A stretch of 27,554 bases of DNA, taken from the IMG/VR virus record IMGVR_UViG_3300012349_000015, positions 1 through 27,554 of that record; one strand, given 5' to 3'. The translations under genes were made by a program, and so were the position numbers. The notes under the pieces are model-generated. The model was given only the letters and a program-made list of their open reading frames with translations, made no database searches and was not told the origin of the DNA. The stretch is from a virus. Every line of letters starts with the position of its first letter. Position 1 is the first letter of the stretch. Of the stretch, positions 659 through 14,420 are shown piece by piece.

Positions 659-659
659 G

Positions 660-1016
660 TCAGAACCCCACCTGGACTCGGATCGTGGCCGTTGCGGCGG
701 AAGTGACAGCGGCGCGGGCGTAGCCGAACCGGACCCCGCCGGTGGCCTTCTTCGACAGTTTCGGGGTGTCGCCGGTCTGGTAGTAGATGATGTCGCCGTC
801 GGCGACAGCCGAGTTACCGGCCGAGTCGATACCCTTCACCGACAGGTTGAAGTCGCCGTCCAACGCGACGGTGGTGTTGCCGGCGGCGTCCTCGGTGGTC
901 AACGCCACCCCGGGGCACTGCCCGTTGATGACCGGATCCCCCGAGTTGGGGGTGGCCGGGTCGGAGCAGGCGAAGGAACGCGTCTTGGTCCACTTGACGA
1001 CCATGTTGGCTGACAT
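660..1016 (-). CDS. DUF2190-like capsid decoration (cement) protein
   Basis: 118 residues starting MSANMVVKWTKTRSF. The sequence is beta-rich and ends in a segment around GVRFGYARAAVTSAATATIR, the hallmark of DUF2190 proteins, which also end in a GxA.....A....VR strand pair. DUF2190 proteins are small head-stabilising proteins encoded directly before the major capsid gene, which is exactly this position. The start codon overlaps the stop of the upstream protease gene (TGATG), implying translational coupling and co-expression with protease and capsid. Two cysteines (CSDP, QCPG) are not part of a recognisable metal site. It acts on the outer surface of the capsid by family analogy; this is inference from family and order. 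Confidence 0.75.
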   Translation of the reverse strand: MSANMVVKWTKTRSFACSDPATPNSGDPVINGQCPGVALTTEDAAGNTTVALDGDFNLSVKGIDSAGNSAVADGDIIYYQTGDTPKLSKKATGGVRFGYARAAVTSAATATIRVQVGF

Positions 1017-2914
1017 CAGCGACGACCTCCCGCCGCGACGAGCGCCGCATCGCTGCTCATCCCAAGACGTTTGAACGACTCGGCGAGGCTGGTCTCGAAC
1101 TGCTTCGTCGCGTCCGGGCCAGCGGTGCCGGCGCCCAGGCCGGCGCCCACTCCGGTTACCCGGCCGTCCCCGGCGGCCTCCCGCAGCGACGCCACGTAGG
1201 TTTCCTCCGCCTTCGCCGCCTCGGCGACCGCGGTGCGGAACGTCGCCTCGTCGAGGCGCAGCACCTTCACCGCCGCCCCGTCGCGCAACTCGTCGGCCTC
1301 CGCGAGCGGCACATCCCGCACCGCCGCGGCCAACACCCGGTCCCGGGCGGCCAACGGAAGGTTGGACTCGGAAAGGATGCTCGACGCGATCGGCCGGGCC
1401 GCCTCCACGGCGGTCAGCCGGGCCAGCGACTGGCGCATCTCCTGCGCCTCCCGCACAGCGGTGTCGCGTTCCTGCTCGGCCTTCACGCGAGCCTGCTCGG
1501 CTTCGGTGACAGCGGCCGGCACCACGGCGGTGGCCTCGGTTGCCCCCGCCGCACCCGGCGCCGGGCCGGTGTTGGTTCCAGACACGCTGGACTCCTTCTC
1601 GGGTGGGTTGGGTTCGGCCGGCGGGGCGCCGCCCGTGACATCAGTGAGGGGAGGGGGTTCGGTCATCGGCTCGTCGGCCTCGACAAGTCCGGCACCGGTA
1701 CAGGCCGGCACAGCGGCCTCGCCCATGCCAGCCATCCGCAGCAGCGACGGCGGCGGGTCTTCTTTCAACTGGGACCGGTACAGGCCGACCAGTTTGCGGG
1801 CGGCGGCCTTCTTCGCATCCGCAGACGCGTTCACCCCGCCCCGGCCACCGGCCAGCGCCGACGCAGCTGCGTGCACCCCGTTGCGGTTGACGGTGCCGTC
1901 GGGCTGCTTGACGGGTAGCTTGTAGCGGTCTTTCGAATCCGGGGAGCCCTGCCCGGTGTCGAGCAGGCATGCCCGCCGGTACTGCTCCGGGGTGTAATCC
2001 GAGGCCGAGAATTGCGACCACGGGGTGTCGCTGACCTCACTCAGCGACAGAGCGGCCTCGGACACGGCCGTGCCGTCCTCGGGCGGGCCATCGTAGAGAT
2101 CCCTGGTGAAGAGCTGACCTGCATCTTTCTCGACCCGGGCCGTCCACGCCTGCAAGGCGTCGCCGACCGCGTTGGACAGGGTGATCCGCTCATCGCGGGT
2201 CAACTGGCCGTTGCCGTACATCTGGTCCGCGATGTCGGTCAGCGCGCTGTGCAGTTGGGCTTCGATCCAGGCGCCGATGTTGCGCGCCTCCCGGATCTGC
2301 ACCCCACCCTCGCGGGCCGCCTCCACCAGGGAGACGAGCTTCCCGCCGGCGCCGGCCTTCGTCACGAAATCCACGGAGTAACCGCGGTCGATGGACTCGA
2401 TGACGATCCCCGACCGGTCGCCGACCTTCCCGACCGTGCCGGACCCGTCGCCGCGCACCGACAGGCCGACCGCATCGGCCAGCGCCTCCACCAACGGCAC
2501 GGCGTGGGGGAAGACTTCGATGTCGGCGTACAGGCCATCACCCTCGTAGACGGGGGTGGACACGACGCGGCCGGCGAGGTCGCGGACGGACCGCTCTGGC
2601 CGGTCCGCAGACTCGGCGATCGACGGGTGATCCAGAAAGACCTGCGTGGTCCCCGCGGGCCAGGCCGTAGGGCCATCCCGCTCGAGCACCTTCGCTGGCC
2701 AGTAACCCGACGTCCCCCACCGGTCCCCTTCGATCAGCCGCGCCCGGTACCGTCGCCCACCGGCCGGCGTGAGGCTGCCCATGGTGGCCTCGGCGATGGC
2801 AACCCGCTCGACGGTGGCCGCCGACTCGCGCAGTTGCACCGGAACCGGGAACGCCTTGCCGGGGGGCACCACGGCACCCCAGCCGGGGCGGCGCAGCTTA
2901 CGGCGGTTCGACAC
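1016..2914 (-). CDS. Capsid maturation protease / scaffold polyprotein with DUF6582-like middle domain
   Basis: 632 residues, GTG start with GAGGGAG about 10 nt upstream. The N-terminal domain (about 35-200) resembles HK97/U35-type prohead proteases: a VFLDHP segment (His96) followed by a DLAGRV strand and GLSVRG (Ser152) are the likely catalytic His and Ser. A middle block (about 300-393) with SKDRYKLPVKQPDG and NRNGVHAAASALAG resembles DUF6582. Then come a Pro/Ala linker (400-470), a coiled coil rich in Glu, Ala and Arg (about 470-505) and an alanine-rich C-terminal part, which fit an internal scaffold. It lies immediately before the decoration and capsid genes. Protease and scaffold in one chain is known in phages; the DUF6582-like insert makes it unusually long. 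Catalytic residues are inferred, not proven. Confidence 0.72.
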   Translation of the reverse strand: MSNRRKLRRPGWGAVVPPGKAFPVPVQLRESAATVERVAIAEATMGSLTPAGGRRYRARLIEGDRWGTSGYWPAKVLERDGPTAWPAGTTQVFLDHPSIAESADRPERSVRDLAGRVVSTPVYEGDGLYADIEVFPHAVPLVEALADAVGLSVRGDGSGTVGKVGDRSGIVIESIDRGYSVDFVTKAGAGGKLVSLVEAAREGGVQIREARNIGAWIEAQLHSALTDIADQMYGNGQLTRDERITLSNAVGDALQAWTARVEKDAGQLFTRDLYDGPPEDGTAVSEAALSLSEVSDTPWSQFSASDYTPEQYRRACLLDTGQGSPDSKDRYKLPVKQPDGTVNRNGVHAAASALAGGRGGVNASADAKKAAARKLVGLYRSQLKEDPPPSLLRMAGMGEAAVPACTGAGLVEADEPMTEPPPLTDVTGGAPPAEPNPPEKESSVSGTNTGPAPGAAGATEATAVVPAAVTEAEQARVKAEQERDTAVREAQEMRQSLARLTAVEAARPIASSILSESNLPLAARDRVLAAAVRDVPLAEADELRDGAAVKVLRLDEATFRTAVAEAAKAEETYVASLREAAGDGRVTGVGAGLGAGTAGPDATKQFETSLAESFKRLGMSSDAALVAAGGRR

Positions 2915-2940
2915 GACAGCGGCTCCCTCGGACGTGAAAG

Positions 2941-2968
2941 AGCCCCGACACGGGCTTGTGTCGGGGCT
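2941..2968 (-). terminator. Perfect 11-bp hairpin between HNH and protease genes
   Basis: Arms AGCCCCGACAC (2941-2951) and GTGTCGGGGCT (2958-2968) pair perfectly around a 6-nt loop. It lies just after the stop of the endonuclease gene and just before the protease GTG, so on the minus strand it would end or attenuate transcription of the endonuclease gene. No real T-run follows (only CTTTC), so it may be an attenuator or RNA-processing site instead. Confidence 0.5.
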
Positions 2969-2982
2969 CAGGTGGGTGACCG

Positions 2983-3783
2983 CTAGGCGGCTAGATCGGG
3001 GGTCAGAAGAGCAGGGCCTGATGAGTCAGCGCAGGGCGAGCGCCCTTGCTGCTGTTGCAGTGCCTGCACGCTGGGACGATCGGCCTTCCGGCGCAGATAG
3101 TCGACAGCGGCGAGTAGCCGCTCAGGACTGTCCGCGAACATCCCGATCCCAACATTGCATTGAGGACATAGGAGTCCTCGGACCTGTCCACCAGCATGGC
3201 AGTGGTCGACTACAAGGTAGGCTTCGGTGCTTCCGCAGGCTTCGCAGCCGTTTGCCTCGTCGAGCATCTTCCTGAACTCCGGCACAGAAAGGCCGTACGT
3301 CCAGGCGCGGCGGGCGATGCCCTTGCACCTCATCGAGCAGTACATGGACCCCAGCGTGAACTCTTCACCTAAAGGGGCATCGCACATTACGCACGAGAGG
3401 ATGCGGCCAGGGACGCCCATCCGAGATCTGCGACGACAGAGGCCGTCGCAGAAGATCTGCTTCCGACGCACGGCCACGCCGCAATGATGGCAGGAGCCGC
3501 TGGGTTTCCGAACCATCGTTACCGTTGGGCTTCCGTGCCTGTAGTTGCGCATGTAATGGCGTTCGCACCACGGACCCTTGGTCGAACGCTTGAACCTGTC
3601 ACATCCGGCTATCTCGCACTGCCCAGCGGCTAGGAGCCGATCTCTGCGCCGCTCAGTTATTTCGGCCCGCTTGCACTGCACGGAACAGTGGACCGGCGGC
3701 CTGCCCTGCGTCTTCCGCGCGAACTCACTACCGCAGCGGCGGCAAGTCCCTCGCCTCGGTGCGGTAGGCGTAAGCTTCCGCAT
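2983..3783 (-). CDS. Endonuclease VII-like HNH nuclease with multiple zinc knuckles, inserted in head operon
   Basis: 266 residues from the ATG at 3783, chosen over an in-frame TTG at 3795 because GGAG lies 7 nt upstream of the ATG. The C-terminal domain (about 165-235) matches recombination endonuclease VII: Cys180-x2-Cys183, the VVDHCH motif (His194, His196), RGLLCPQCN (Cys206, Cys209, Asn210), and a C-terminal helix ending in DYLRRK. The N-terminal half carries several Cys pairs (around 14-37, 56-74, 98-116, 131-153) that look like repeated zinc-binding DNA-recognition fingers. It interrupts the usual MuF-to-protease order, is flanked by hairpins, and its DNA is visibly less GC-rich than its neighbours. 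This suggests a recently acquired free-standing homing-type nuclease rather than a structural gene. Target site unknown. Confidence 0.82.
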   Translation of the reverse strand: MRKLTPTAPRRGTCRRCGSEFARKTQGRPPVHCSVQCKRAEITERRRDRLLAAGQCEIAGCDRFKRSTKGPWCERHYMRNYRHGSPTVTMVRKPSGSCHHCGVAVRRKQIFCDGLCRRRSRMGVPGRILSCVMCDAPLGEEFTLGSMYCSMRCKGIARRAWTYGLSVPEFRKMLDEANGCEACGSTEAYLVVDHCHAGGQVRGLLCPQCNVGIGMFADSPERLLAAVDYLRRKADRPSVQALQQQQGRSPCADSSGPALLTPDLAA

Positions 3784-3810
3784 GTTCGACTCCAACTAGT
3801 CGGACCACAG

Positions 3811-3838
3811 CCCGGGAGCGTCACCAGCGCTCGCCGGG
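3811..3838 (-). terminator. Hairpin downstream of the MuF-like gene
   Basis: CCCGG-GAGCG (3811-3820) pairs with CGCTC-(G)-CCGGG (3828-3838), a 10-bp stem with one bulged base and a 7-nt loop. It lies between the stop of the MuF-like gene (3915) and the start of the endonuclease gene. No T-run is present, so a transcription end is possible but unproven. With the hairpin at 2941-2968 it brackets the inserted nuclease gene. Confidence 0.35.
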
Positions 3839-3914
3839 CCCTTACGTGCCCATTATGCCGTACACATGTGCCATCCGACGGCCAACACCCTTGCGGCCCA
3901 ACGACTTCTCTCGG

Positions 3915-5003
3915 TCAGGCGGCGAGACGGGAGCGCTGGTTGGCGAGGCGTTGCAGGTCCCGCAGCGGCGTCGGCACGTAGGACGGTCGCCATGCGCTGG
4001 ACTCGCGGCGGGTGGCCAGGTCGTCCCACGTGATCCGGCCAGCGCGGAGAAGATCCAATCTGGCCGCGCCGAGGATGCCTACCTGGACCTCTTCGGACTG
4101 GGCGTCGAACCAGGCACGTGCGTCGGGGAACTGGTCGGGTGGTTCGTCGTCGCCGAGGCCCAGTTCGCGCCACGACTTGAGGGTGGGCACCCGCTGACAG
4201 CGGCCCTGCTGGTGGTCGATCGGACCGGCCTCGGACAGGGCGTGCTGCGATCCATCCATCGACAGGCATGAGGCACAGACCCGGCTGTCGATCTTTGCCG
4301 ACCAGCGCCACCCGGCGAGCACGTCGGCGTTGGCCATGTCCACGTACTGCCCCGCGACACGGTGCGAGTCGAGGATCTCGGTACGCGAGATGATCAACGC
4401 CCGGGTGAGACCGCCACCCTCGAAGGCGCCCTGTACCCGGTCCACCATCGCCTTCGCCACGGTCTCCGGGTCGTCGCCCAACGCCACCCCGCGGACCAGT
4501 TCCCGGCGCATCGCCTCACCGGCCTGCGCCGACAGGGGGCGGGCGGCCGATTCGATCTGCTGCCCGCAGCGAGCGACCATCACATCCACGGCGCGCGGCG
4601 GGATCTTGCCGGCGACCCGGGCCGCTGCATCGGCGCGCTGCGCGGCGGGTAGTTGGGAGGCGATCAGCCGGGCCTCGCCCTGTACCGTCGCCTCAACAGC
4701 CCTCGCTGCGGCGTCCTTCACCGATGTAGCGGTGCGCAACCCCAACCGGTCCAGCGCATCCGATGCGGCGGCGAGAACCGTCTGCACGCCGGGGATGCGG
4801 GCCAGTTCCCACCGGCCCGGCCAGCGTCCCGCACGTACCGCCGTCACGGCGACCGAAGTTGCGGCAGCGAGCATCGGCGGGGTTAGCAGCGCCCAGGCGG
4901 CCACCCATGCGGCGGTCAGGTCCCGGGTGGTGCCGTCGGCTTCGGTGCCCACGTCGTTGCGTAGTTGCGCCGAGTCCTGAAGCGTGGCGGCGGTGACCGG
5001 CAC
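3915..5003 (-). CDS. MuF/SPP1 gp7-like head morphogenesis (minor capsid) protein
   Basis: 362 residues; GTG start immediately abutting the portal stop codon. The N-terminal half is alpha-helical and Ala-rich. The C-terminal half carries the Phage_Mu_F signature: ISRTEILDSHRVAGQ (about 205-219), then GWRWSAKIDSRVCASC with Cys243 and Cys246, then a GPIDHQQGRC segment with His264 and Cys269. Together these form the characteristic metal-binding or ADP-ribosyltransferase-like core of this family. Such proteins bind the portal inside the procapsid and may be ejected with the DNA. Position directly after the portal gene agrees with all known orders. The length is normal for a single-domain MuF protein; no toxin fusion is visible. 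Confidence 0.88.
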   Translation of the reverse strand: MPVTAATLQDSAQLRNDVGTEADGTTRDLTAAWVAAWALLTPPMLAAATSVAVTAVRAGRWPGRWELARIPGVQTVLAAASDALDRLGLRTATSVKDAAARAVEATVQGEARLIASQLPAAQRADAAARVAGKIPPRAVDVMVARCGQQIESAARPLSAQAGEAMRRELVRGVALGDDPETVAKAMVDRVQGAFEGGGLTRALIISRTEILDSHRVAGQYVDMANADVLAGWRWSAKIDSRVCASCLSMDGSQHALSEAGPIDHQQGRCQRVPTLKSWRELGLGDDEPPDQFPDARAWFDAQSEEVQVGILGAARLDLLRAGRITWDDLATRRESSAWRPSYVPTPLRDLQRLANQRSRLAA

Positions 5004-6683
5004 CTACGTGCTCGCTGGCTGGGTCACGGCGCCGTCCGGGTTCCCGTCGGCGGTGGTTCCGTCCCCCGGTGGGGTGTCGGCCCCCGACATTGGCCCTGTT
5101 CCGGCCGTAGCGGGGTCCTGCCCGGTGCGGGCCAGCCCTGCGGCCGTCTGCCCGAGACTGGTAGGCGCGGACGGCCAGATGAAGTTCCCGTCCTCGTCGA
5201 CCTGCGCGGCCACCAGCTCATCGGTTCTGGCCACCCCCATCGCCGTCAAAAGCAGCCGCAGGATCTCCTCGGGCCGGACGGTGCCGGTCGAGTCGGCCTG
5301 CACGATCGCCTGCACCAGCGACAGCGGATCCACCGTCGCCAACTCCGGCCAGGTGATGTCGATCGTGTCGGGGGTGTCCCCGTCCAGGATCACCGTTTCC
5401 CGGTCGTTCTCATCCCGCGTGATCCTGCCCTTGAGGGCGCCCTTCGGCGCGCGCACCGACTCGGCGATCACATGGTCGAGGATCGAGCGCAGGAACTCCG
5501 ACCACAGGGTTTGGCGTTGCGCCATCTCCAGTTCGGTCGGCTGGTCCAGGGTTTCCGCGGTTGCCCGCGCGCCGGTCTGGCCGGGGTCGGCCAGCAGCAT
5601 CGTCACCGGCACACCCAACGCCGCAGCGACCATCATTGCCAGGGGCCGGCCGGATTCGGCGTCGATGGTGGCACCGGACTTGGGGATGGCCTCCAGTGAC
5701 GCATCGGCCGGCATGATCGCCGTCGCCCCCGACGACAGCGGCAGCCCGGTCGCCGGGTCGATCGACGGCGCAGCGGCTATCTTCGCCCTGGCCTGACCTG
5801 CGGCCTGACCCTTCGCGGTCAACCTCCACGCAAACCGCGACAGCGACTTGACCAGCCTCGCCCAGTCCTCCAGGAACTCCTTGTACGCCTTCGCCCAGTC
5901 GATCGCGGCATACACGTCCGGTACCCCACGGCGCCAGCCCAGCGGCACGTTGACGGCGAGGTGCACGATCGGGGAGTCCCACGCGATGGGGATCCCGCCG
6001 AACGCCGCCGGCCGCTGCGTGGGCCGGTAGCCGACCGCGGGGTAGAACCGTTCCCGCAGCGTCGGGTTCACGGTCCCCGTCTGGTTGTCGAGGGCCATCT
6101 CGTTCCAGCGGCGGTGGTAGTACCACGGTTCGGTGGCGTCGTCCGGGTTGCAGATCACGTCGGCGATCTCGTCGGCAACCACCGTCCGTGCCTGCACGGT
6201 GCCCGTCAGGGGCTTCGTGAACAGGACCACGAAGATTTCCCCGTCGTGGCCAAGTGCCCGCTCCAACTGCTCCCGCGCGGCCGGACCCGTCACGGCACGC
6301 CGGTTGCCCCGGTCGTCGAGGAAGGCTTGGATGACCGCGTTGACGTCCTGCTCACCGCTGTTGCGCCCATCGGCGCGGGCGGCGAGCTCGACCCCCTGGC
6401 CATGGACATATGCGACCTTAAGGGACAACCCCCGGCGCACCAATGGGCTCTTCAGGGCGTATATCCGGCATATCGCCCGAAGTTGGCGCAGACCCTCGGG
6501 GCGGAACTCGACCTCGGCCAGCGCTGTGAGTCGCACCCAGCCTGGGTCAAAGAGCTGGCGCTCAAGGTCAACTAGACTTTCCTGGAGCAATTCCACTGTG
6601 GACCGTTCGCGGTCCAGATCCTCCCGCAGTTCCGCCTCGCGCATCTTGCGCTTCGACGGGGCAGCGAGGGCAGGGGTGGACAC
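5004..6683 (-). CDS. Phage portal protein
   Basis: 559 residues with a GTG start preceded by a GGGGG run. The N-terminus has a charged coiled coil (about 12-45) and then the typical portal opening around RAICRIYALKSPLVRRGLSL, followed by HGEIF-like core sequence (LGHDGEIFVVLF), PDDATEPWYYHRRW, and the stem-region text LGWRRGVPDVYAAIDWAKAYKEF. A later segment, ALGVPVTMLLADPGQT, is a common portal motif. The C-terminus is Pro/Gly/Thr-rich and probably disordered. Portals form the dodecameric DNA channel at one capsid vertex and dock terminase. It lies between terminase and MuF-like genes, as expected. The C-terminal tail abuts the next gene with no gap. Confidence 0.9.
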   Translation of the reverse strand: MSTPALAAPSKRKMREAELREDLDRERSTVELLQESLVDLERQLFDPGWVRLTALAEVEFRPEGLRQLRAICRIYALKSPLVRRGLSLKVAYVHGQGVELAARADGRNSGEQDVNAVIQAFLDDRGNRRAVTGPAAREQLERALGHDGEIFVVLFTKPLTGTVQARTVVADEIADVICNPDDATEPWYYHRRWNEMALDNQTGTVNPTLRERFYPAVGYRPTQRPAAFGGIPIAWDSPIVHLAVNVPLGWRRGVPDVYAAIDWAKAYKEFLEDWARLVKSLSRFAWRLTAKGQAAGQARAKIAAAPSIDPATGLPLSSGATAIMPADASLEAIPKSGATIDAESGRPLAMMVAAALGVPVTMLLADPGQTGARATAETLDQPTELEMAQRQTLWSEFLRSILDHVIAESVRAPKGALKGRITRDENDRETVILDGDTPDTIDITWPELATVDPLSLVQAIVQADSTGTVRPEEILRLLLTAMGVARTDELVAAQVDEDGNFIWPSAPTSLGQTAAGLARTGQDPATAGTGPMSGADTPPGDGTTADGNPDGAVTQPAST

Positions 6684-6698
6684 TCGGCACCCCCAGCG

Positions 6699-6878
6699 TC
6701 AGTCGAACAGGTCCGGATCGCAGCGGGTACAGCCACCGAAGGCGCCGAGGGGCTGCGGGCCGCTGTCCATCAGGGCGTACACGTCAACGACGAGGCGGGC
6801 CGACGTGAGGCAGCGGTCGCACCACTCCCGACGCGGCTCACCCGTAGCCGTGTGGATGTAGACCACCTGCTCGGCCAC
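6699..6878 (-). CDS. Small zinc-ribbon-like protein between terminase and portal
   Basis: About 59 residues from a GTG at 6878 with AGGGG about 6 nt upstream; a longer upstream reading frame has no ribosome site and runs through the inserted element, so it was not used. The product has two Cys pairs, CDRC and CTRC, about 30 residues apart, which is the layout of a zinc ribbon, and ends DPDLFD. Small proteins of this type are common between actinophage terminase and portal genes and have no known function. It begins 17 nt after the stop of the interrupted gene and ends 16 nt before the portal start. Confidence 0.7.
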   Translation of the reverse strand: MAEQVVYIHTATGEPRREWCDRCLTSARLVVDVYALMDSGPQPLGAFGGCTRCDPDLFD

Positions 6879-6960
6879 GCCCACCCCTTGCCGCTCAGAC
6901 CCGCTCCGGCCAGTGCCACGTGCCGCCGTGGAGTTTGGCCTCGCGCCATCCGCAGGAGCA

Positions 6961-7164
6961 TTGACTTCCTCCACCGCCGTGAACGGCGGGGATTCCCTCC
7001 GTGCTGCGCGTGGAACGCACAACGCCCGGGTGGGTTCCTGGTTCATCGCAGTCCGCCCGGGCAAGCCCAGGTCTTACGTCTACTCCGCAGGCGTTTTCCG
7101 TCTCCGCAAGCCCTGCGGCGACGTTTGGTGCGTCGGGCTCCAGCTTGGTTATCGCTGGAGCCCG
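6961..7164 (-). ncRNA. Candidate omega-RNA (TnpB guide-RNA scaffold)
   Basis: In TnpB elements the guide RNA overlaps the 3' end of tnpB and the right end, and its guide is the flanking DNA just past the element. Here that region survives. It contains an uninterrupted 11-bp hairpin CGGGCTCCAGC/GCTGGAGCCCG (7134-7164), a further GC-rich pairing around 7023-7063, and the terminal hairpin at 6971-6991, ending ...GGAGGAAGTCAA at 6961. The predicted guide would be the adjoining minus-strand phage sequence beginning TGCTCCTGCGGATGG. Structure and end match the family; transcription and any functional use are inference, since no TnpB gene is present in the window. Confidence 0.55.
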
Positions 7165-7253
7165 GCCGGACGGTACCACAGTCAAGGGCACTGCTCGGGC
7201 CCTTGGCGGCCCTCCCAGCGCGGGCCTTCACCCCCGCCCTCAAGGGCGGAGCA
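6961..7253 (-). mobile_element. Miniature IS200/IS605 (TnpB-type) element, no intact ORF
   Basis: A 293-bp insert inside a phage gene, bounded by a 6-bp direct repeat TGCTCC (minus strand; plus-strand copies 6955-6960 and 7248-7253). Read on the minus strand, the last 159 nt encode AAGLAETENACGVDVRPG, continuing to GIPAVHGGGGSQ. This is the sequence type seen at the C-terminus of actinobacterial TnpB proteins as they run into the element's right end. The right end is a hairpin CCGCCG-TTCA-CGGCGG followed by GGAGGAAGTCAA. The left end has the palindrome CCGCCC-TTGA-GGGCGG (7234-7249). No RuvC-containing part of TnpB remains, and no TnpA. Either a deletion derivative or a non-autonomous element mobilised in trans. 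No target motif such as TTGAC is seen next to the left end, so the exact left boundary is uncertain. Confidence 0.72.
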
Positions 7254-7564
7254 CTGGCCCGCATCCCGGTAGCGCATGGGGTTGCCGTGGATCTCCGGGT
7301 TCAGGCAGTCGGGTGATTCGGGCTCCTCTGCACCCTCGTCGTACCGGCAGCCACCGGCCGCGAGCGAATGCAGGAAGATGCCCGTCGGGTTCAGTACCGC
7401 CAGGACAACGCGCTCGCCGCCGAGACTGCGCGGCACGCCAAGCTCGACCTCGGTCACGATGGCTGCGCGGCACTCTGACCTGAACTCGCCACCCGGGGTT
7501 CCGAACGAGACATAGTGCACGACGCGGCCGACCGACGGCTGCTGGTCAACCACAGGCGCTCCGT

Positions 7565-9057
7565 TCAGTACAGGCTGATCAGCGCCTCGTCCTCGGTGTC
7601 TTCCTCTTCGAGGACCCGGTCGTCGAGCAGCAGCGGGTTGAGTAGCAGCCGGTTCAACGCCTGCGACATGGCGTCCACCCGGTCATCGTTCGCCGAGAAG
7701 GGGAAACCTGCGCATTCCTCCACAACCTCGCCGACCCACGGGGCCAGTTCGGGGGCCGGCAAGAACACGTTGCCGGCCTGGACGAACGGCGACACGGCTG
7801 CGGCACGGGCCTTCTTCGACCCGTCCGGCTCGACCGGGATCAGCCCGGCGACGGTGCGCCGCAGGGCGTTGACGACGGCTGGGCCGTTGGCCTTGTCCTC
7901 AACGAGTTTCGCGGCAGCCTGCGGCCAGCGGGCCGAAAGCGTACGGACCTTCAGGCAGGTGGTGACGAAGTCCATCCGGTCGTGCACCTGGTCAAGCAGG
8001 TACGCCTGCACGCCACGGCGGCCCCACACCTGCCCGCACACGAAGTCTGTCCCGGCAGAGTCCTTGAAGGTCATATCCCACGAGGCGATCAGCTCATCGA
8101 AACCGACCGCGATCCGGGTACCCTCGTCGCGTTCCGTCCACTGCGGTGTGTCGTAGTAGCGCCACCACTCGCGTTGGAAGATGTTGCCGGCGACCGGGTT
8201 GGGCTTGCCCTGAAACAGGGCCGTCCACGACTCGGCGCCGACTTCCTTCTTCTTCTTCTCCCAGTCGACGACGGTACGGCCGCGGGTGGACTGCATGTAC
8301 TCGCCGGGCTGCCGGCCCAGCGGGTCCGTCTCGCCCTTCTCGGGGCGGTGGTCGGCCTGGGCCGGGATGTTGATGACCCGCCAATGGTCGGGGCCGTCTT
8401 CCTTCAGCCGCCAGCCGGTCAGGTCGTCATGCGTCCAGCGCGTCTGGATGATCACCACGGCGACACCGGGGCCGAGTCGGGGGATCGCCACATCGGTGTA
8501 GAAGTCCTCGACGGTTTCCCGCCACGCCGGGGATTCGGCCGCCTCACGGTCCTTGTACGGGTCGTCGATGATCAGCAGGTCGACGGGGCGGGACGTGAGC
8601 GAGCCACGGATCCCGACGCAGTACACGCCACCCTGACGGCTGGCGATCTCCCACTCGTTCGCCGCCGCCGAGTCGGGGTTGACCGACAGGCCGAGACGGT
8701 CGCCGTGCAGCATGATGTCGTCGCGGATGAACCGGCCCCACCGGCGGGCGACGGTGTGGGCGTAGGACACGATCGCGATGCGGGTGTCCGGGTTGCGGTG
8801 CAGCACCCACTCCGGGAAACGCCGGGAGGTGCGCTGGCTTTTCCCTCCTGAGGCGCCAGGGAGATCATTAACCGTTCGCAGCGGCCCTCGGCCACGTCAA
8901 TCAGCGCCGCATCGATCAGGCCAAGGGCTGGCGTCTGGACGGTACGCGGGTCGAGCGCCCTGGCAAGGTCACCCGGTGTCGGCCACTGCGACACCCGGGG
9001 GCCAGTCGGCTCGAATAGGCGTGCCGCAGCCTCCCACGCGGACAACGTCCCGGTCAT
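7565..9057 (-). CDS. terL: Terminase large subunit, split by a -1 frameshift in Walker A
   Basis: Two overlapping frames together encode about 497 residues. Frame one starts at ATG 9057 (ATGA overlap with the small terminase) and reads to SLAPQEGK (residue 73). The chain continues only in the -1 frame from 8839 as SQRTSRRFPEWVLHRNPD. The join completes the ATPase P-loop APQEGKSQ. Downstream are Walker B (LLIIDDP), coupling motif IIQTRWTHDDL, and a nuclease domain with ASWDMTFKDS, KLVEDKANG and ANDDRVDAMSQALNRLL. It is the ATP-driven DNA packaging motor and nuclease. The shift occurs at GGGAAAA (8845-8839), in phase for -1 slippage. Without shifting, translation ends near 8572 as a 161-residue protein lacking the motor and nuclease. 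The family call is firm; whether it is expressed full-length is open. Confidence 0.88.
8839..8845 (-). other. Candidate -1 ribosomal slippery heptamer GGGAAAA in terL
   Basis: Read 5'-3' on the minus strand, G GGA AAA is in the zero-frame phase X XXY YYZ. After slipping, the next codon is AGC and the Walker A motif becomes EGKSQ. Ten nucleotides further on, CTCC(C)GG (8828-8822) can pair with CCGGAG (8815-8810) around a 6-nt loop, a possible stimulatory hairpin. The same arrangement would arise by losing one G or A from an ancestral GAGGGGAAAAGC, so deletion or sequencing error is the competing explanation. Confidence 0.5.
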
Positions 9058-9659
9058 GCCGCCACCGCCCTCAGGTGCCGAGGGACCACCGTCGCAACCT
9101 TCGCCTGCTGCTCCGCAGACAGGCCGAGGTCGTCGAGGATGGCCCGGATCACCGAGGCGAGTAGTTGGCCCTGTTGCTCGGCCAGCCGCACCCGGCGTTC
9201 CTCCACGCCAGCCTGGATGGCCGCCTTGCACACGTCGAGCAGGTGCCGGCGTTCTTTGTAGTACAGGTCCAGCCACACGTTCGGCGCCGCAGCATGGGTC
9301 ACGTCAACCCCGACGAACTCCCCGGCGCCCTTGTCGACCTCTTCCGTCTTCCCCCAGACCAGCGCATCACGTTCGATGGCCTGGACCTGCTGGCGTAGCC
9401 ACGCCACATGCCCGGCGGTCCACTTCACCTCGTCGAGAAGAGCCTCCGTAGGGGACACATCGACGGGAAGGCCGTAGGTCTGTACCGCCTGCTCCGCCGC
9501 CTCGTCCTGAAGCCGCCGTTCGGCGGCAGCCAGGGCGCGAGGCGAGTTGCCGCCGTGAGACTCGCACACCTGCTGGCCGTGGCGGGGCCACTTGCCGCAC
9601 GGCTGGCCGTTGCGCTTCCTGGCCTTGCACTTCGACCTAGGTCCGATGGGTTCGCTCAT
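9054..9659 (-). CDS. terS: Terminase small subunit (HGG zinc-finger type)
   Basis: 201 residues from ATG 9659, chosen because it overlaps the upstream stop (ATGA) and starts right before the conserved domain; longer in-frame starts add low-complexity sequence. The N-terminus has the C-x9-C-x10-C-x2-H pattern (Cys11, Cys21, Cys32, His35) in KCKARKRNGQPCGKW and VCESHGG, typical of actinophage small terminases and related DNA-binding proteins. The rest is helical, with an LLDEVKWTAGHVAWLRQQV segment and a C-terminal LGLSAEQQAKVATVVPRHLR. It recognises the packaging site and loads the large subunit. Its stop overlaps the terL ATG, so the two are translationally coupled. Confidence 0.85.
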   Translation of the reverse strand: MSEPIGPRSKCKARKRNGQPCGKWPRHGQQVCESHGGNSPRALAAAERRLQDEAAEQAVQTYGLPVDVSPTEALLDEVKWTAGHVAWLRQQVQAIERDALVWGKTEEVDKGAGEFVGVDVTHAAAPNVWLDLYYKERRHLLDVCKAAIQAGVEERRVRLAEQQGQLLASVIRAILDDLGLSAEQQAKVATVVPRHLRAVAA

Positions 9660-9889
9660 GCCGCTGGGTCCGATGGGTTGACGGAACGGGGAGCGCCGTC
9701 CCGGGCCTCGACGTGCGTCACGTAGGCGTCCCGCCACCTGCGGGCGGCGTCCTGCCACTCGGGGGTCTGCGACTCCCAGCCGCCGTCAACGGAGGTGATC
9801 AGCCCACAGGCGGTGTCCAGCAGCCACTCGGCGGCAGCGTAGGAAACGGTCACATCCGGGCCGGGTGGCCGTCCCCTGCGACGCGACAT
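9656..9889 (-). CDS. Hypothetical protein upstream of small terminase
   Basis: 77 residues from ATG 9889 (MSRRRGRPPGPDVTV). A basic N-terminus (RRRGRPPG, AT-hook-like) is followed by a helical region with AAEWLLDTACGLI and EWQDAARRWRDAYVTHVEA. The RGRPPG stretch suggests minor-groove DNA binding, which would suit a packaging-linked accessory role, but this is inference. Its stop overlaps the terS start, and its start lies 8 nt after the preceding stop. A longer reading frame extends to 10009 but is Ser/Thr/Pro-rich with no ribosome site. Confidence 0.65.
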   Translation of the reverse strand: MSRRRGRPPGPDVTVSYAAAEWLLDTACGLITSVDGGWESQTPEWQDAARRWRDAYVTHVEARDGAPRSVNPSDPAA

Positions 9890-9896
9890 GGCCCGT

Positions 9897-10022
9897 TCAG
9901 GCCCGGACGGTGATGGCGTAGCCGATGACGGTCGGGTCGTCGTCGGAGCGGGTGATCCGGCCGACATCGACGAACGCCTCGAAGTGCTCGTGGGGGCAGG
10001 CGCGGTCAAGGTCGGCGGTCAC
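9897..10022 (-). CDS. Small hypothetical protein (41 aa)
   Basis: Starts at a GTG overlapping the stop of the nuclease-like gene (GTGA at 10022-10019), which decides the start. The product includes ACPHEHFEAFVDVGRIT and then DDPTVIGYAITVRA. The CPHEHFEAFV segment and a beta-rich tail are, from memory, a recurrent small-protein type in actinophages with no assigned function. One Cys and two His could bind metal but the set is incomplete. Coupled on both sides to neighbouring packaging-region genes. Confidence 0.62.
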   Translation of the reverse strand: MTADLDRACPHEHFEAFVDVGRITRSDDDPTVIGYAITVRA

Positions 10023-10429
10023 AGCGCGGTCCCTTCCGGTCGTGGCCACGGCGGTACCGGCTTCGGCCCGCTCCCGCTCCACGGTGCCAGCCACTGCTCG
10101 GCGATCAGCCGCGCCACCAGGTCGGTCCCGTCGGGCAGGGTGATCCGGGCGTCGCGGCGCGGGTCGTACTTGTCGGCGTGCAGCACCGTCACCGTCACCG
10201 CAGTCCCGGCAGGGAGTAGGGCTGCGAGGTTGTCGCGGGCCTCCGGACCACCCGGCTGGGCGAGCTCGCGGGCGTTGCAGCCGGCCAGCCGGATCGGTAC
10301 GTCATGCGCCCACAGCGCCACGCCGAGCAGCGGCTTCGTTGCCAGGTCGAGGGAGACGGCCAGGGAGTCGCCGTCGTGGACGTGGGAGACGACGGCGGAG
10401 GTTGGGGCAGACAGGAGGGCGTCGAGCAC
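10019..10429 (-). CDS. Thermonuclease-like (SNase fold) protein
   Basis: About 136 residues from a GTG at 10429, 6 nt after a GGGGG run; the adjacent GTG at 10432 is possible. The SNase/OB-fold pattern is clear: HVHDGDSLAV (Asp19, Asp21), VPIRLAGCNAREL (Arg47, Glu55), GPEARDNLAALLPAG, then DKYDPRRDARI with Arg91/92 and DGTDLVARLIAEQWLAPWSG. These positions correspond to the Asp, Arg, Glu and Arg of micrococcal nuclease, so it may be active on DNA or RNA. No signal peptide is visible, so it acts in the cell. It sits first in the packaging operon, diverging from a ribbon-helix-helix gene. Phage SNase-like proteins have no settled role. Confidence 0.78.
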   Translation of the reverse strand: MLDALLSAPTSAVVSHVHDGDSLAVSLDLATKPLLGVALWAHDVPIRLAGCNARELAQPGGPEARDNLAALLPAGTAVTVTVLHADKYDPRRDARITLPDGTDLVARLIAEQWLAPWSGSGPKPVPPWPRPEGTAL

Positions 10430-10504
10430 CACGCACCCCCGGCTTTCACCCGTCTCGGGTATGGCATTCAGCCGGTATCCGCACCCTTGGAAGGGACGCC
10501 CCTC

Positions 10505-10711
10505 ATGCCCGTCAAGCTCACCGTCAGCCTGTCCGAGCAGGTCGTCGACGCCCTGAAGGAACTCGCCGACGAGCAGGGGACCTCGGTCACCGAACAGTTG
10601 CGGCGGGCCGTGGCGCTGCAGAAGTGGGTCAGCGACACCCGCAGCCAGGGTGGGCGGGTGCTGGTCGAGGATCCGACCGGGGGCACCCGGGAGTTGGTGT
10701 TCCTCGGCTAG
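10505..10711 (+). CDS. Ribbon-helix-helix (CopG/Arc-like) DNA-binding protein
   Basis: 68 residues from ATG 10505, with GGAAGGGA upstream. The start reads VKLTVSLSEQVVDALKELADEQGTSVTEQLRRAV, a classic ribbon (KLTVSL) followed by two helices with the SVTEQLRRAV turn, so a dimeric RHH fold that binds palindromic or tandem operators. The C-terminal 25 residues form a short hairpin-like extension ending RELVFLG. It is one of the few plus-strand genes and faces the nuclease-like gene across a 75-bp divergent region with two GGTAT direct repeats 16 bp apart (10458 and 10474), a possible autoregulatory operator. No toxin gene is next to it. Its stop shares CTAG with the convergent protease gene. Confidence 0.8.
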   Translation: MPVKLTVSLSEQVVDALKELADEQGTSVTEQLRRAVALQKWVSDTRSQGGRVLVEDPTGGTRELVFLG

Positions 10712-11436
10712 ACCTTCGGGACCGTCACGTCGGCCTGCTGGGCGCGTAGCGTCTCCCAGTCTGACAGGCGCAGCCGGAATGATCCACTCACGCCCCACCG
10801 GTCCGACCACGAGTTATCCGCAGTCAGGTAGCCCTCCTGGCCGCCGACCCCCGGCTCGTAGCCGCGCACCAGGTACTCATGCCCACCTCGGATGTCCCCG
10901 TCGGGGTGGACGTAGCCGTCCCGGTCGGGATGGTCCATCGATGATGTCCACACGCTGCCGACCAGAACCGGCGACGCTTGTAGGGCGTGCAGCAGCCCCC
11001 AGGTCGTGAACGCCCACCCGTAGGAGGAGATGAGCCCGGTCCGCTTCGCCGCCTTCGCGACCGCGACGCCCGTGCTGCCGGAATCGACGGACGCCGGATC
11101 GCCGGGAAGGTAGTAGCCGGGGATCCGGTCGTACCTCGTGGCCAACTCGTACAGCTTGACCGCCATCGCCTCGTCGTAGCGGGGCGCGTCGGTGGTGCTC
11201 TGGCAGTGCGGGGCGCAGCCAAGCCAGCCCGCCATGGCATTCCCGGTGCAGCTGCCGACCGACCCCTGGTCCAGAATCGGCGAGTAGCGGGGCCAGAGGA
11301 TCGGGCCGGGGACGTAGGCAGGTACGGCCGCCTCGACCGCGAACGCGCGGGAACGGGGGTCGTGTTCGACGTGCCGCCCCAAGCGACCGGCGCCGGGAAG
11401 TTCGTCGGCGTAGATCACCGTTGTGATCGCCACCAC
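10708..11436 (-). CDS. Papain-like (C1 family) cysteine protease
   Basis: 242 residues, GTG start after GGGGGG. The catalytic pattern is complete: DQGSVGSCTGNAMAG gives the oxyanion Gln57 and nucleophile Cys63, GGHEYLVRGYE gives His186, and YLTADNSWSDRWG gives Asn208 in the NSW context typical of C1 peptidases. The central part (YELATRYDRIPGYYLPGD and STGVAVAKAAKRTGLI) matches the substrate-groove region of the same family. No signal peptide or pro-domain is visible, so it probably acts in the cell or in the virion. Possible roles include processing of phage proteins or host targets; none is known. It lies upstream of the packaging genes in the late direction. Confidence 0.85.
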   Translation of the reverse strand: MVAITTVIYADELPGAGRLGRHVEHDPRSRAFAVEAAVPAYVPGPILWPRYSPILDQGSVGSCTGNAMAGWLGCAPHCQSTTDAPRYDEAMAVKLYELATRYDRIPGYYLPGDPASVDSGSTGVAVAKAAKRTGLISSYGWAFTTWGLLHALQASPVLVGSVWTSSMDHPDRDGYVHPDGDIRGGHEYLVRGYEPGVGGQEGYLTADNSWSDRWGVSGSFRLRLSDWETLRAQQADVTVPKV

Positions 11437-11471
11437 GGAGCCCCCCGATCAGCGGTTCAAGCGAAGGCGGG

Positions 11472-11717
11472 TCAGTGCTTCCGGTAGCGGTAGAAGAGCT
11501 CGTTGGGCAGCGCCTCAAGGCTAAACGCCTCGGCGTCCGGGTCGAGCGTTGCCGGGTGCACCAACTCCCGGGTCTGGCCGACCGTGAACGTCACCGCGTT
11601 GACCGAGTGGTACTTGGCCAGTTCCTCCACGAAGCCCTTCAGCATCGCGTCGGCGTCGTCCGGCCGTCCGTTGTCGTGGATGCCGCCGCCCTCGATGTGC
11701 ATCGACCACTGGCCCAT
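11472..11717 (-). CDS. Hypothetical phage protein (81 aa)
   Basis: ATG start at 11717 with AGAGGA about 11 nt upstream. The product reads MGQWSMHIEGGGIHDNGRPD, then DADAMLKGFVEELAKYHSVN and a beta strand AVTFTVGQTRELV. Alternating helix and strand suggest a small compact alpha/beta fold. From memory, a MHIEG...HDNG..DDA pattern recurs in small proteins of actinophages, always unassigned. It is separated from the protease gene by 35 bp and from the next gene upstream by a stem-loop region. Confidence 0.65.
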   Translation of the reverse strand: MGQWSMHIEGGGIHDNGRPDDADAMLKGFVEELAKYHSVNAVTFTVGQTRELVHPATLDPDAEAFSLEALPNELFYRYRKH

Positions 11718-11753
11718 GCCCGGTCACGTCCTCTCGCGTGCGGTTGGGGATCA

Positions 11754-11796
11754 CCCGCCGGCCGGTCGATGCCCCTCAACACGGCCGACCGGCGGG
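11754..11796 (-). terminator. GC-rich stem-loop between 12158-11829 gene and 11717-11472 gene
   Basis: GCCGGTCG (11761-11768) pairs with CGACCGGC (11786-11793) with a 17-nt loop; alternative outer pairing CCCGCCGG (11754-11761) with CCGGCGGG (11789-11796) is also possible. It lies in a 111-bp intergenic gap. No T-run follows, so it could be an attenuator or processing site rather than a strong terminator. Confidence 0.35.
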
Positions 11797-11828
11797 CGAC
11801 CTCATCCCCCCTGCGGATGCCCTTCGGC

Positions 11829-12158
11829 TCAGACCACCAGCATCGCGGTGACGCTGGTCGTCGCCGAGTAGTTGACGGTGACCTTGTTCGTCGAGTCGAC
11901 GAAGTTGCCGAGTTTGCCGAACGCGCGGGACGTGTTCGCCCCGACGGTCACGCCGGTCTGGGCGGCGGCCAAGGTCCCAGCGGGTGTATGCCCCGGATCG
12001 ACGATCGTCACCGTGGTCGGCGTCGCGGCCGCAGTCACGATCAGGACCGCGCCGTTGGCGACATCGTTGGCGTTGATGGTGTCCCCCGAAGCGACGGCGA
12101 CGCCCGTGCAGACGGGGCCGGTCGGGTCGCCGGTGACGGCCGTGTACAGGGTGGTCAT
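11829..12158 (-). CDS. Small beta-rich protein, possibly virion-associated
   Basis: 109 residues from ATG 12158, chosen because GAGGAGG lies about 11 nt upstream; a further upstream start has no ribosome site. The sequence is Thr/Ala/Val-rich with few charges: TTLYTAVTGDPTGPV, AVASGDTINANDVANGAVLIV, then alternating strands ending SATTSVTAMLVV. This composition resembles small Ig-like or decoration or fibre-tip proteins of phage virions. The GDTI.A.D.ANGAVLIV text is the kind of beta-sandwich core seen there. No catalytic motif. A structural role is inferred from composition only. Confidence 0.6.
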   Translation of the reverse strand: MTTLYTAVTGDPTGPVCTGVAVASGDTINANDVANGAVLIVTAAATPTTVTIVDPGHTPAGTLAAAQTGVTVGANTSRAFGKLGNFVDSTNKVTVNYSATTSVTAMLVV

Positions 12159-12245
12159 GGCGAAGGGCCTCCTCGGCGGTCGGGGGTCGGTGACCGCCAA
12201 GGAGGCGGCAGGGGGTCAGGTCAGCGATTGCGGCAGCCACCCGAC

Positions 12246-12470
12246 CTAGAGAGGGTCAGAGGAGTCGGCCTTGCGGCCACCCAGGGCCGCGACAGCCCCG
12301 ACGGCATGCTCCAGCACGATCGCGTACAAGGAGACAAAAACCAAAAACGGCACCGAGGAACGCCACGCGGTCATTCCCGGTATGCACAGTCCGGCCCAGA
12401 CGACGGCGCCGATGGCATGCACCCAGAACCAGACCCGGGGGCTGGTCAGCGGGTGGCGGACCCGGGGCAT
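12246..12470 (-). CDS. Two-helix small membrane protein (holin-like topology)
   Basis: 74 residues from ATG 12470 with GGGAGGG about 3-5 nt upstream. Two transmembrane segments are evident: VWFWVHAIGAVVWAGLCI and VPFLVFVSLYAIVLEHAVGAV, joined by a short turn with PGMTAWRSS. The N-terminus is basic (PRVRHPLTSPR) and the C-terminus polar (GGRKADSSDPL). Size and topology fit class II holins and also generic actinophage membrane proteins. No lysin is in the window, so a holin role is only a possibility. Located between a small virion-like gene and a DNA-binding protein gene. Confidence 0.68.
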   Translation of the reverse strand: MPRVRHPLTSPRVWFWVHAIGAVVWAGLCIPGMTAWRSSVPFLVFVSLYAIVLEHAVGAVAALGGRKADSSDPL

Positions 12471-12698
12471 CCGCCCTCCCGGGGGGTTGTGGGTGCGCGG
12501 CCGGACGGCGAGGTTCCAGCCGCGCACGTTGGGAGGGTCCGGGCCAGCCAGGGGGGCTCGCGGCGAGCATGGGTACAAGACGCGAGAACTACGCCAGCCA
12601 GCTAGCCCGGACCATCCGGGAGGTGTGAACCGGCGCATTCGATGCCAGCGGGCGCAGAACGGTCCACGCTAGGCAGCCTTGCTCATCTGGGGTCAGGG

Positions 12699-12947
12699 TC
12701 AAGCGACACGCCGGTCCCTCTTGCCCAGTTTTTTCCCGGTTCGGTAGGGCCTCGCCTGAATCCCGGCCAGGAGGTCCAGGGCGAGCAGGTTGTCGTACAG
12801 CGGCCGCCCCGTCGCCCGGTCGTACTCGGCGGCCGGGCAGTAGCGGCGGACCGTGGCTTCGGACACCGCCAGGTCGTGGTAGCGCAGCAGCGCTTCGGCG
12901 TCCATCAGCGCGTAGTTGCGGGCGGGGTCGATCGGCAGCACGATCAT
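12699..12947 (-). CDS. Small helix-turn-helix-like protein
   Basis: 82 residues from ATG 12947. It reads LMDAEALLRYHDLAVSEATVRRYCPAAEYDRATGRPLYDNLLALDLL. The segment LAVSEATVRRYC resembles the turn and recognition helix of a MerR- or excisionase-like winged helix-turn-helix, and the following DRATGRPLYD would be the wing. The C-terminus is strongly basic (RPYRTGKKLGKRDRR), supporting nucleic-acid binding. It could be a regulator or the recombination directionality factor that a tyrosine integrase of this phage would need. The excisionase idea is inference, favoured by size and by lying about 2.4 kb downstream of the integrase. Confidence 0.6.
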   Translation of the reverse strand: MIVLPIDPARNYALMDAEALLRYHDLAVSEATVRRYCPAAEYDRATGRPLYDNLLALDLLAGIQARPYRTGKKLGKRDRRVA

Positions 12948-12986
12948 CTTCCGATCGTGGCACCGACTGGAGCCGGGCGCAGGCGG

Positions 12987-13157
12987 TCAGGCTGACTTCC
13001 AGCCCTTCGGCATGTTCCGCTGCGCGTAGGCGAGCATCCGTCGGATCATCTCCGAGCGGTTCACGTCCTCAGTCGTGGCGCGCTGGTCGATCCAGTCGAT
13101 GCCGTCCTGGGCGAGTTTGATGGCAACGAGGGGGCGCCGAGGCCCCGGGCGGGGCAT
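12987..13157 (-). CDS. Small ribbon-helix-helix-like protein (56 aa)
   Basis: ATG at 13157 overlaps the stop of the gene before it (TGATG), and the TGA stop is at 12987. The product reads RRPLVAIKLAQDGIDWIDQRA, then DVNRSEMIRRMLAYAQRNMP. A beta strand (PLVAIKL) followed by helix, a VNRSEMIRRML turn-helix, is the ribbon-helix-helix layout; the NRSEMIR motif is particularly typical. It may repress its own operon from the palindromic promoter at 13582-13625, two genes upstream in the same transcript. That link is inference from position. Confidence 0.7.
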   Translation of the reverse strand: MPRPGPRRPLVAIKLAQDGIDWIDQRATTEDVNRSEMIRRMLAYAQRNMPKGWKSA

Positions 13158-13414
13158 CAGGTGCCCCGCCCGACCTTGTCACGAATCCGGCCAGCCACCG
13201 ACGCGGCGTACTCCCGCACCTGCTCGTCCGCATCAGCGGCGTCATCCACGATCCACTGAGCAAGTTCAGTCATTGGGCTTGCGCGCCCGACATCGACACC
13301 AGCACAGAACGCCTCGCGGATCGCGTACATGACGGCCTTGGAACTCCGGTCGCCCTCACGTACCCATCGGCTGTAGATCCGATGCGCCTCAGGACTGAAC
13401 GGTGCCGCGCTCAT
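13157..13414 (-). CDS. Hypothetical protein (85 aa)
   Basis: ATG at 13414 overlaps the preceding stop (ATGA). The sequence is largely helical: FSPEAHRIYSRWVREGDR, AVMYAIREAFCAGVDVGR, and ELAQWIVDDAADADEQVREYAASVAG. No metal site or catalytic motif is visible. It is the middle gene of a three-gene leaderless operon with a zinc-knuckle-like protein before and a ribbon-helix-helix protein after it. Function unknown. Confidence 0.65.
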   Translation of the reverse strand: MSAAPFSPEAHRIYSRWVREGDRSSKAVMYAIREAFCAGVDVGRASPMTELAQWIVDDAADADEQVREYAASVAGRIRDKVGRGT

Positions 13415-13581
13415 CGTGCGGCCCCCTGGCAGTCAGCGCAGTTGGAGGGCCGGGCCGAAGGCCGGATCTTGCCGTGGATGAGCGCACCACAGAGCGCGGT
13501 GTTGGAGAACGTCGGCACGATGTGAATGGTGCCGGTGTGGACGATCTGAATGTTGTCGGTGGTGGCCCAGGTCTTCGTCAT
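13411..13581 (-). CDS. Small Cys-containing protein, first gene of a leaderless operon (56 aa)
   Basis: ATG at 13581, TGA at 13411, overlapping the next ATG. The product starts MTKTWATTDNIQIVHTG and ends with SNCADCQGAAR. The C-x2-C near the end, with a third Cys at LCGALIHG, resembles a degenerate zinc ribbon. There is no ribosome-binding site: the start codon lies 7 nt after a TAGTGT -10 box whose -35 is TTGACA, so the transcript probably begins at the AUG. Function unknown; it is the first gene made when this promoter fires. Confidence 0.65.
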   Translation of the reverse strand: MTKTWATTDNIQIVHTGTIHIVPTFSNTALCGALIHGKIRPSARPSNCADCQGAAR

Positions 13582-13625
13582 GTGTATAACACTACACCCG
13601 CTAGGCGGATAGTGTCAAACACTAT
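13582..13625 (-). promoter_or_regulatory. Leaderless promoter overlapped by two palindromic operators
   Basis: On the minus strand a consensus -35 TTGACA (13618-13613) is followed, after 18 nt, by -10 TAGTGT (13594-13589), and the ATG starts 7 nt later. A 7-bp inverted repeat ATAGTGT-TTG-ACACTAT (13609-13625) covers the -35. A second, GTGT-TAT-ACAC (13582-13592), covers the -10 and the start point. Both share the half-site AGTGT/ACACT. A bound dimer at either would block polymerase, so this is a strong candidate for a phage repressor operator. Confidence 0.72.
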
Positions 13626-13930: not shown

Positions 13931-14019
13931 GGGATCAGGCTAGCGGGCGGCGGCGGAGAACCAGGGAAGGCGCCGCGGCGGCCAGCGGACTACGCCGACC
14001 GCCGCAGGCTCTACAGTGA

Positions 14020-14148: not shown

Positions 14149-14157
14149 GTTTCACCT

Positions 14158-14182
14158 CCCCTCACGCTAGATGCGTGAGGGG
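14158..14182 (-). promoter_or_regulatory. Perfect hairpin abutting the ribosome site of the small membrane gene
   Basis: CCCCTCACGC (14158-14167) and GCGTGAGGGG (14173-14182) are a perfect 10-bp inverted repeat with loop TAGAT. In the minus-strand RNA the downstream arm ends in GAGGGG, which is directly continuous with the AGG of the Shine-Dalgarno sequence, so folding would cover part of it. It could be an RNA switch, a protein-binding operator or an upstream terminator. Confidence 0.5.
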
Positions 14183-14186
14183 CACC

Positions 14187-14402: not shown

Positions 14403-14420
14403 AATGACCAGGTGACGCGC

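Follow-up and report, generated by a model that had tools for sequence, protein, structure and literature searches.

A mini-element without a protein gene but with an omega-RNA-type right end splits a small phage gene

INTRODUCTION

TnpB is thought to hold its own transposon in place, and MITEs are parasites of transposases. A 2023 study of Geobacillus IS605 elements by Meers et al. reportedly discusses elements without protein genes. Palindrome-associated transposable elements (PATEs), which are already known, are derivatives of IS200/IS605 elements that consist of the ends only (PMC7290912). For ISDra2, the reRNA or omega-RNA is described as ~150 nt long and made up of the tnpB end and the element's right end, with ~16 nt of flanking sequence as guide and a target-adjacent motif, and the insertion of IS200/IS605 elements as taking place 3' of a fixed motif without duplication, the motif being TTGAT for ISDra2 and TTAC for IS608 (PMC8612924). 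A gene drive by TnpB has been described for plasmid IS200/605 elements, in which an element gains from the cutting of copies that lack it (PMC11870625, a preprint).

The locus described here lies in a virus record of 27.5 kb, the whole of which was analysed and is referred to as the window, and it consists of an insert without a protein gene, one of ten related elements that we call minis. Whereas PATEs are described as ends only, the mini has kept its omega-RNA scaffold in full, together with a TANNNT box and an additional hairpin on the 5' side. The mini and ISDra2 are alike in an RNA that comes, or for the mini would come, from the tnpB end and the right end, in a flank serving as guide and in a motif beside the target, but ISDra2 has tnpB within the same element, whereas the mini would need TnpB from elsewhere. 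The TnpB gene drive was shown in plasmids with TnpB in the element, whereas a drive by a TnpB-less element in a phage is what we would extrapolate from it. The literature matches listed, with partial coverage as titles and abstract starts, include no omega-RNA-only TnpB element in actinobacteria or phages, nor a family of such elements that has a promoter-like box and a 5' hairpin of its own. Our favoured reading, to which we assign a probability of roughly two-thirds, is that the insert is a mobile non-autonomous omega-RNA-only derivative of an actinobacterial IS200/IS605 element with TnpA and TnpB, which relies on TnpA to move and may make use of a TnpB supplied in trans.

RESULTS

The split gene and the phage contigs

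In the window, a small minus-strand phage gene is split between the genes for the terminase large subunit and the portal protein (Table 1). Relatives of the first part of this gene are encoded at 12 viral loci; at 11 of them the gene is uninterrupted, ending GGTWHWPERV or a variant of it, though all 11 lack the stretch of the gene in which the insertion point lies. The claim of the first-pass annotation that a conserved small phage gene is interrupted by an insert is confirmed, and the insert is not ordinary conserved coding DNA, being absent from homologs of the gene. The twelfth locus (L010) is a second contig of the window's own phage (G001, 85.7 kb), which is 100% identical, as rounded by the tool, to window positions 1-16915 and 16916-19999 and carries the insert in a copy one base shorter than that of the window. 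Because this contig also has the insert, the insert is not the error of one assembly. At window position 16915/16916 the G001 contig contains 173 extra bases, and the two are otherwise colinear over the 20 kb compared.

Among the loci compared, no insert-free allele of the window's own phage lineage was seen, which counts against the favoured reading. The joined C-terminal peptide gave no match to phage records. When window positions 6700-7500 were compared with phage records, 42 Mycobacterium phage records matched over 53 bp, and among the 20 Mycobacterium phage matches listed these lie under genes annotated as transposase or hypothetical. The host of the window phage is probably a member of the Micromonospora family, because minis occur in that family.

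Table 1. Positions of the insert, its parts and the neighbouring genes in the window
Feature	Position	Strand	Evidence
Terminase large subunit (context)	7565..8806	-	phrog_38, E 1.9e-80
Portal protein (context)	5004..6683	-	phrog_10963, E 9.1e-121
Split small phage gene, 5' part (phrog_2293, unknown function)	7269..7553	-	
Split small phage gene, 3' part (CSCGWREAKLHGGTWHWPERV*)	6895..6960	-	
Complete mini-element, 308 bp, left end 7268, right end 6961, without a protein gene	6961..7268	-	Homologs, joined frame, left-end logo, TCAA
GCTAC, putative target/transposon-adjacent motif	7269..7273	-	Precedes left ends
IS200/IS605-type left end with hairpin (about 7232-7251)	7181..7268	-	90% over 90 nt to L028
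TACCGT, TANNNT -10-like box before the 5' hairpin	7170..7175	-	Position; matching place in minis
5' hairpin, loop GATAACCAA, type A; possible 5' start of the RNA	7134..7164	-	In seven type A minis
Omega-RNA scaffold and right end	6961..7126	-	R1 model, 145.5 bits, E 6.7e-34, all 165 positions
Putative guide flank (about 16-20 nt)	6941..6960	-	Directly 3' of the right end; role by analogy with the ISDra2 reRNA (PMC8612924)

Borders and target motif

The insert had been given a size of 293 bp on the strength of a TGCTCC repeat, which proved to be wrong; this border was rejected because the left end extends to 7268, after GCTAC as in other left ends. Three homologs that do have this stretch of the gene, without interruption, read HGDPFRY/CTCGWREA (L027), HGNPFRY/CACGWREA (L105) and QPFRY/CACGWREA (L106), with the slash at the junction, and joining the window flanks at 7269/6960 produces a single open frame that reads RY/CSCGWREAKL and ends ...HGNPMRYCSCGWREAKLHGGTWHWPERV*. 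Because the three homologs and the joined frame agree, we place the insert at 6961-7268. A further locus, L107, was excluded as it is not a homolog of the split gene.

The insert is preceded by GCTAC and terminates in TCAA, and target duplication is absent; insertion 3' of a short fixed motif without target duplication is of the kind seen in non-autonomous IS200/IS605 elements. Among the distinct left ends, that of the window included, GCTA precedes 23 of 23 and GCTAC 21 of 23, the GCTAC bases lying outside the search patterns used for these 23 left ends. Exact GCTAC is found before only five of the ten minis (the window, L063, L088, L091 and L039), which counts against the favoured reading; one-base variants stand before L057 (GCTAT), L087 (GCTAG) and L089 (GCTGC), and in L090 and L058 the left end is not intact.

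Ends and parent elements

Both ends of the insert are homologous to those of an autonomous element, L028, which lies in a viral contig and has two frames that match Y1_Tnp (E 2.9e-40) and three Pfam TnpB domains. The left end also matches the left ends of Streptomyces tnpA/tnpB elements (92% over 37 nt) and that of L097 (92%), and the right part, positions 6961-7126, matches the right ends of L028 at 72% and of L097 at 79%. Missing from the insert are TnpA and nearly all of TnpB; OrfB_IS605 has no match in the window, and the element contains no effector gene. The first-pass annotation had held that only the C-terminal residues of TnpB and the right end (...GGAGGAAGTCAA) were kept. Both of these are real, but a complete left end is present as well, and the likeness to IS200/IS605 ends on which that annotation depended is borne out. 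Because both ends are kept, we regard the insert as a transposable unit and not as mere leftover RNA.

The full-length actinobacterial IS200/IS605 elements (L028, L037, L040, L097 and L098) resemble the mini in having GCTAC before the left end, a left-end hairpin, the omega-RNA fold and a right end in TCAA. They differ from it in carrying a TnpB frame of ~400 aa, and all but one of the five also have TnpA, as a frame or a fragment, whereas the mini retains only about the last 50 TnpB codons, as decayed sequence. When viral left-end stretches were examined, 4 of 12 looked like left ends (L028, L029, L030 and L048).

Identity of the right end

The covariance model R1 was built from 12 TnpB-linked right ends, with the window and the minis excluded, and has 165 positions and 42 pairs. 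It finds one full-length match in the window, on the minus strand, the next best, at 11.8 bits, being the left-end hairpin. A minus-strand match to TnpB omega-RNA by a model built without the window supports the earlier proposal of a TnpB-less, non-autonomous element with an omega-RNA-type right end. Scores of the same model are 96.8-157.3 bits for the other nine minis, 97.5 bits for the TnpB right end in Mycobacterium phage Jarcob and 57.4 bits for that of G001's own TnpB, and the model has between 2 and 36 matches in each of the five mini-bearing genomes and G001. The minus strand also folds better than shuffled sequence (z -4.26 for 6961-7253 and z -3.75 for 6961-7165), with 0 of 200 shuffles as good in either case. 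The right end accordingly has both the sequence and the structure of a TnpB-element right-end RNA, and a chance origin for it is ruled out by the sequence matches and the R1 model.

At gathering scores, Rfam returned no family in the window. A hit to RAGATH-18, the IS607 TnpB reRNA, at 7035-7091 (23.2 bits, E 0.049) falls below the gathering score of 44.9 and was treated as chance. A weak HgcC match is common to the window and its relatives.

A family of mini-elements

Including that of the window, there are ten minis, eight of them in the Micromonospora family and one in Solihabitans fulvus. A scan of one genome per species with a left-end core pattern gave 16 stretches, 14 of which resemble left ends, L032 and L044 being chance matches; a stretch of Micromonospora sp. 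ATA32 is 84% identical to the insert over nearly the whole length. The search of the Micromonospora family yielded eight minis in 5 of 354 genomes (E <= 1e-32), and a class-wide sample yielded 1 of 394 genomes at E <= 1e-25, namely the centre genome itself. The small size of the family counts against the favoured reading, and the copy counts are lower bounds because the family scans scored two candidates per genome.

All ten minis have in common a junction at GTCGCC between the 5' module and the TnpB remnant. Two of them, L087 and L090, lie at distant sites of one genome and are 98% identical over 290 nt, and this near-identity therefore points to recent movement of the mini form itself; the mini is thus present in more than one copy with evidence of movement. 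One scan of viral contigs for other minis, with the exact junction as pattern, matched G001 only. Contig C302 of G003 contains at 1074-1422 another element of this kind that has lost part of its interior but still holds a fragment of TnpA; its deletion seems to have arisen independently.

RNA structure and protein frame

An alignment of nine minis and 15 other right ends (A2) gave a structure of 37 pairs in which 96.7% of cells are paired and 23 pairs have changed on both sides; none of these measures is reached by any of 500 shuffles, and slid versions pair at 38-47%. With the A2-derived structure, the nine minis by themselves are 96.7% paired with eight pairs changed on both sides, again with 0 of 500 shuffles reaching this and with slid versions at 36-51%. 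Relatedness among the sequences survives the shuffling and can inflate this test; the slid control preserves relatedness but, for both of these A2-derived counts, favours a structure taken from the same alignment. Because the A2 structure came from the alignment in which it was scored, the count was repeated on the minis only, using a structure derived from the 12 TnpB-linked right ends, in an alignment holding the minis and the TnpB-linked rows. Here 96.5% of cells are paired in the nine minis and 7 of 42 pairs have changed on both sides, with the shuffles averaging 1.9 such pairs, 0 of 500 reaching 7 and slid versions pairing at 32-52%; when the terminal hairpin is left out, 6 of 32 pairs have changed on both sides in the minis. 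The pairing of the omega-RNA has been kept, then, through changes on both sides of the pairs. Divergence in the minis is 0.129 in paired columns and 0.114 in unpaired ones, so that the pairing columns are not more conserved, which counts against the favoured reading, and the case for selection on the RNA rests for this reason on covariation.

The protein frame behaves differently from the pairing. Divergence of the TnpB frame at codon positions 1, 2 and 3 is 0.109, 0.149 and 0.127 in the minis, without an excess at the third position, and 0.185, 0.239 and 0.272 in the non-mini rows, with a mild excess; in three minis the frame is broken, by a stop in L058 and by frameshifts in L088 and L089. 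A kept RNA shape together with a decaying protein code in nine relatives suggests an RNA that works with a borrowed enzyme.

The structure and codon counts cover nine of the ten minis, as L039 is in alignment A1 but not in A2. From 26 right ends, A2 leaves out L074 and L079, which were aligned over 38 nt. Right-end hits that stopped short of query position 120 were skipped; the second hit of L001 was dropped for want of a recognised end, as were L040 and L068; and duplicates were removed, namely L047, L029, L010 and three copies of the window (L002, L023 and L024). Alignment A6 has 12 rows, these being the 15 non-mini rows of A2 minus L073, L082 and L086, for which TnpB was not found in the stretch examined; the TnpB frames of L077, L083 and L099 are partial, and L007 is TnpB-linked by annotation.

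Promoter-like box and 5' module

A TANNNT sequence lies upstream of tnpB in 13 of 14 full elements, its end 6-7 nt from the GTG, an arrangement like that of a leaderless message (L045 has none). Eight of the ten minis carry TANNNT at the equivalent position, as judged by eye, post hoc and without a chance estimate, and it stands there directly before the structured 5' module; L089 and L058 have no exact TANNNT, and no -35 box was identified, points that count against the favoured reading. In seven minis, the window among them, the module is of type A, with the loop GATAACCAA or one base different from it. The 11-bp perfect stem reported for the window in the first-pass annotation is indeed there; across the seven minis one pair of this stem is A-U in four and G-C in three, and a few pairs are broken in single sequences, which counts against the favoured reading. 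The type B module of L091, L063 and L039 has other hairpins, as judged by eye. It is unrelated to type A, yet is joined to the same scaffold.

From the positions of the box and of the stem, an RNA of ~205 nt is predicted, not counting the guide. Over its first 12 nt, the putative guide matches no site but its own among the loci collected in this analysis, as is to be expected if the target is the empty allele.

DISCUSSION

The main rival to our reading is a plain MITE, which would be moved by TnpA in trans and for which the DNA end hairpins alone would matter, the scaffold being an idle passenger. TnpA requires the element ends only; the ends of the mini are intact, TnpA genes are present in four of the five host genomes, and the equal divergence of paired and unpaired columns is what a passenger would be expected to show. 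Against these points, six pairs outside the terminal hairpin have changed on both sides and still pair in the minis, the protein frame has been lost while pairing remains at 96-97%, and both a promoter-like box and a structured 5' hairpin have been kept, on which grounds we consider a passenger scaffold rather unlikely. It is very improbable that the insert is a dead remnant, that is, a decayed IS605 copy in one phage that is wholly inactive. The insert does lack both transposase and TnpB, and it was found in only one phage lineage, with a one-base difference between its copies in two contigs, but nine relatives share its junction, including a pair within one genome at 98% identity, and its ends and its insertion 3' of GCTAC are exact. 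The first-pass annotation had argued for retention rather than random decay, and a structure kept with two-sided changes, along with those nine relatives, bears this part of it out.

TldR systems pair an inactivated TnpB-like protein with its own guide RNA beside it, and the TldR guide matches a regulatory target elsewhere. The same annotation had likened the insert to a domesticated guide-RNA locus; a phage locus of this sort, in a TldR-like manner, would regulate or attack a target. The element has no effector gene that could play the part of the TldR protein, and the window has no OrfB_IS605 match. Its place among structural genes, and the TnpB with all three TnpB domains in the longer phage contig, would suit such a role, but the first 12 nt of the putative guide match only their own site among the loci collected, related phage genes are without the insert and the insert breaks the gene in which it sits. 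With a single phage lineage, a broken gene and relatives in bacterial genomes (two of them near-identical in one genome), domestication is unsupported, and we give it next to no weight.

If the insert is, as we favour, a mobile omega-RNA-only derivative, a Y1 transposase of the host cell would move it in single-stranded form. Transcription driven by the TANNNT box would start near the 5' hairpin, and the resulting short RNA would run through the right end into the flank. TnpB supplied in trans would then bind the RNA of the mini and cut GCTAC plus flank, which is the empty allele, and repair would either restore the mini after excision or copy it into sister phage genomes that lack the insert. 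The phage tolerates the loss of the small gene, perhaps thanks to an intact paralog. A bolder form of the same idea is a selfish gene drive in phage that consists of a guide RNA only: with its own promoter and a 5' hairpin cap, the element would have a borrowed host or phage TnpB cut insert-free sister genomes during co-infection or replication, and would spread by repair without encoding a protein. We hold this version tentatively, as a possible outcome that we would sooner doubt than expect.

Were our reading true, a guide RNA alone could parasitise the TnpB of other elements, much as MITEs do with transposases. The minis would also provide natural scaffolds of ~205 nt that have been freed from coding duty, with which it can be asked which parts of an omega-RNA matter, and the specific prediction follows that the empty allele of the split phage gene is the target.

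Candidate helper proteins are at hand in the bacterial genomes, with TnpA (PF01797) in four of the five mini-bearing genomes and TnpB (PF07282) in all five. TnpA was not detected in the window, G001 or G002, and was not found in the mini-bearing genome G005; its absence from the phage contigs and from G005 counts against the favoured reading. G001 itself encodes a TnpB frame of ~425 aa with all three TnpB domains. The RuvC-type residues of this frame, judged by eye, look complete. This TnpB adjoins an intact paralog of the split gene, so that both TnpB-type insertions of this phage involve copies of one small gene, lying either within the copy or next to it. The right end of the G001 TnpB is 84.5% identical to that of the mini, a value that refers to the aligned part of a gapped alignment only. 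Given this gapped identity and an R1 score of 57.4 bits, as against 145.5 bits for the window, the G001 TnpB may not use the RNA of the mini.

The TnpB element beside the intact paralog lies within L026 (G001 14500-21000). In the window, a hairpin region at 16789-16842 matches the left end of this G001 TnpB element (49 bp, 98%) and the tip of its right end (31 bp, 94%). It terminates in GTCAA and looks like a fusion of the left and right ends of that element, and its hairpin sits where a minus-strand ORF (16440-16793) has its start codon.
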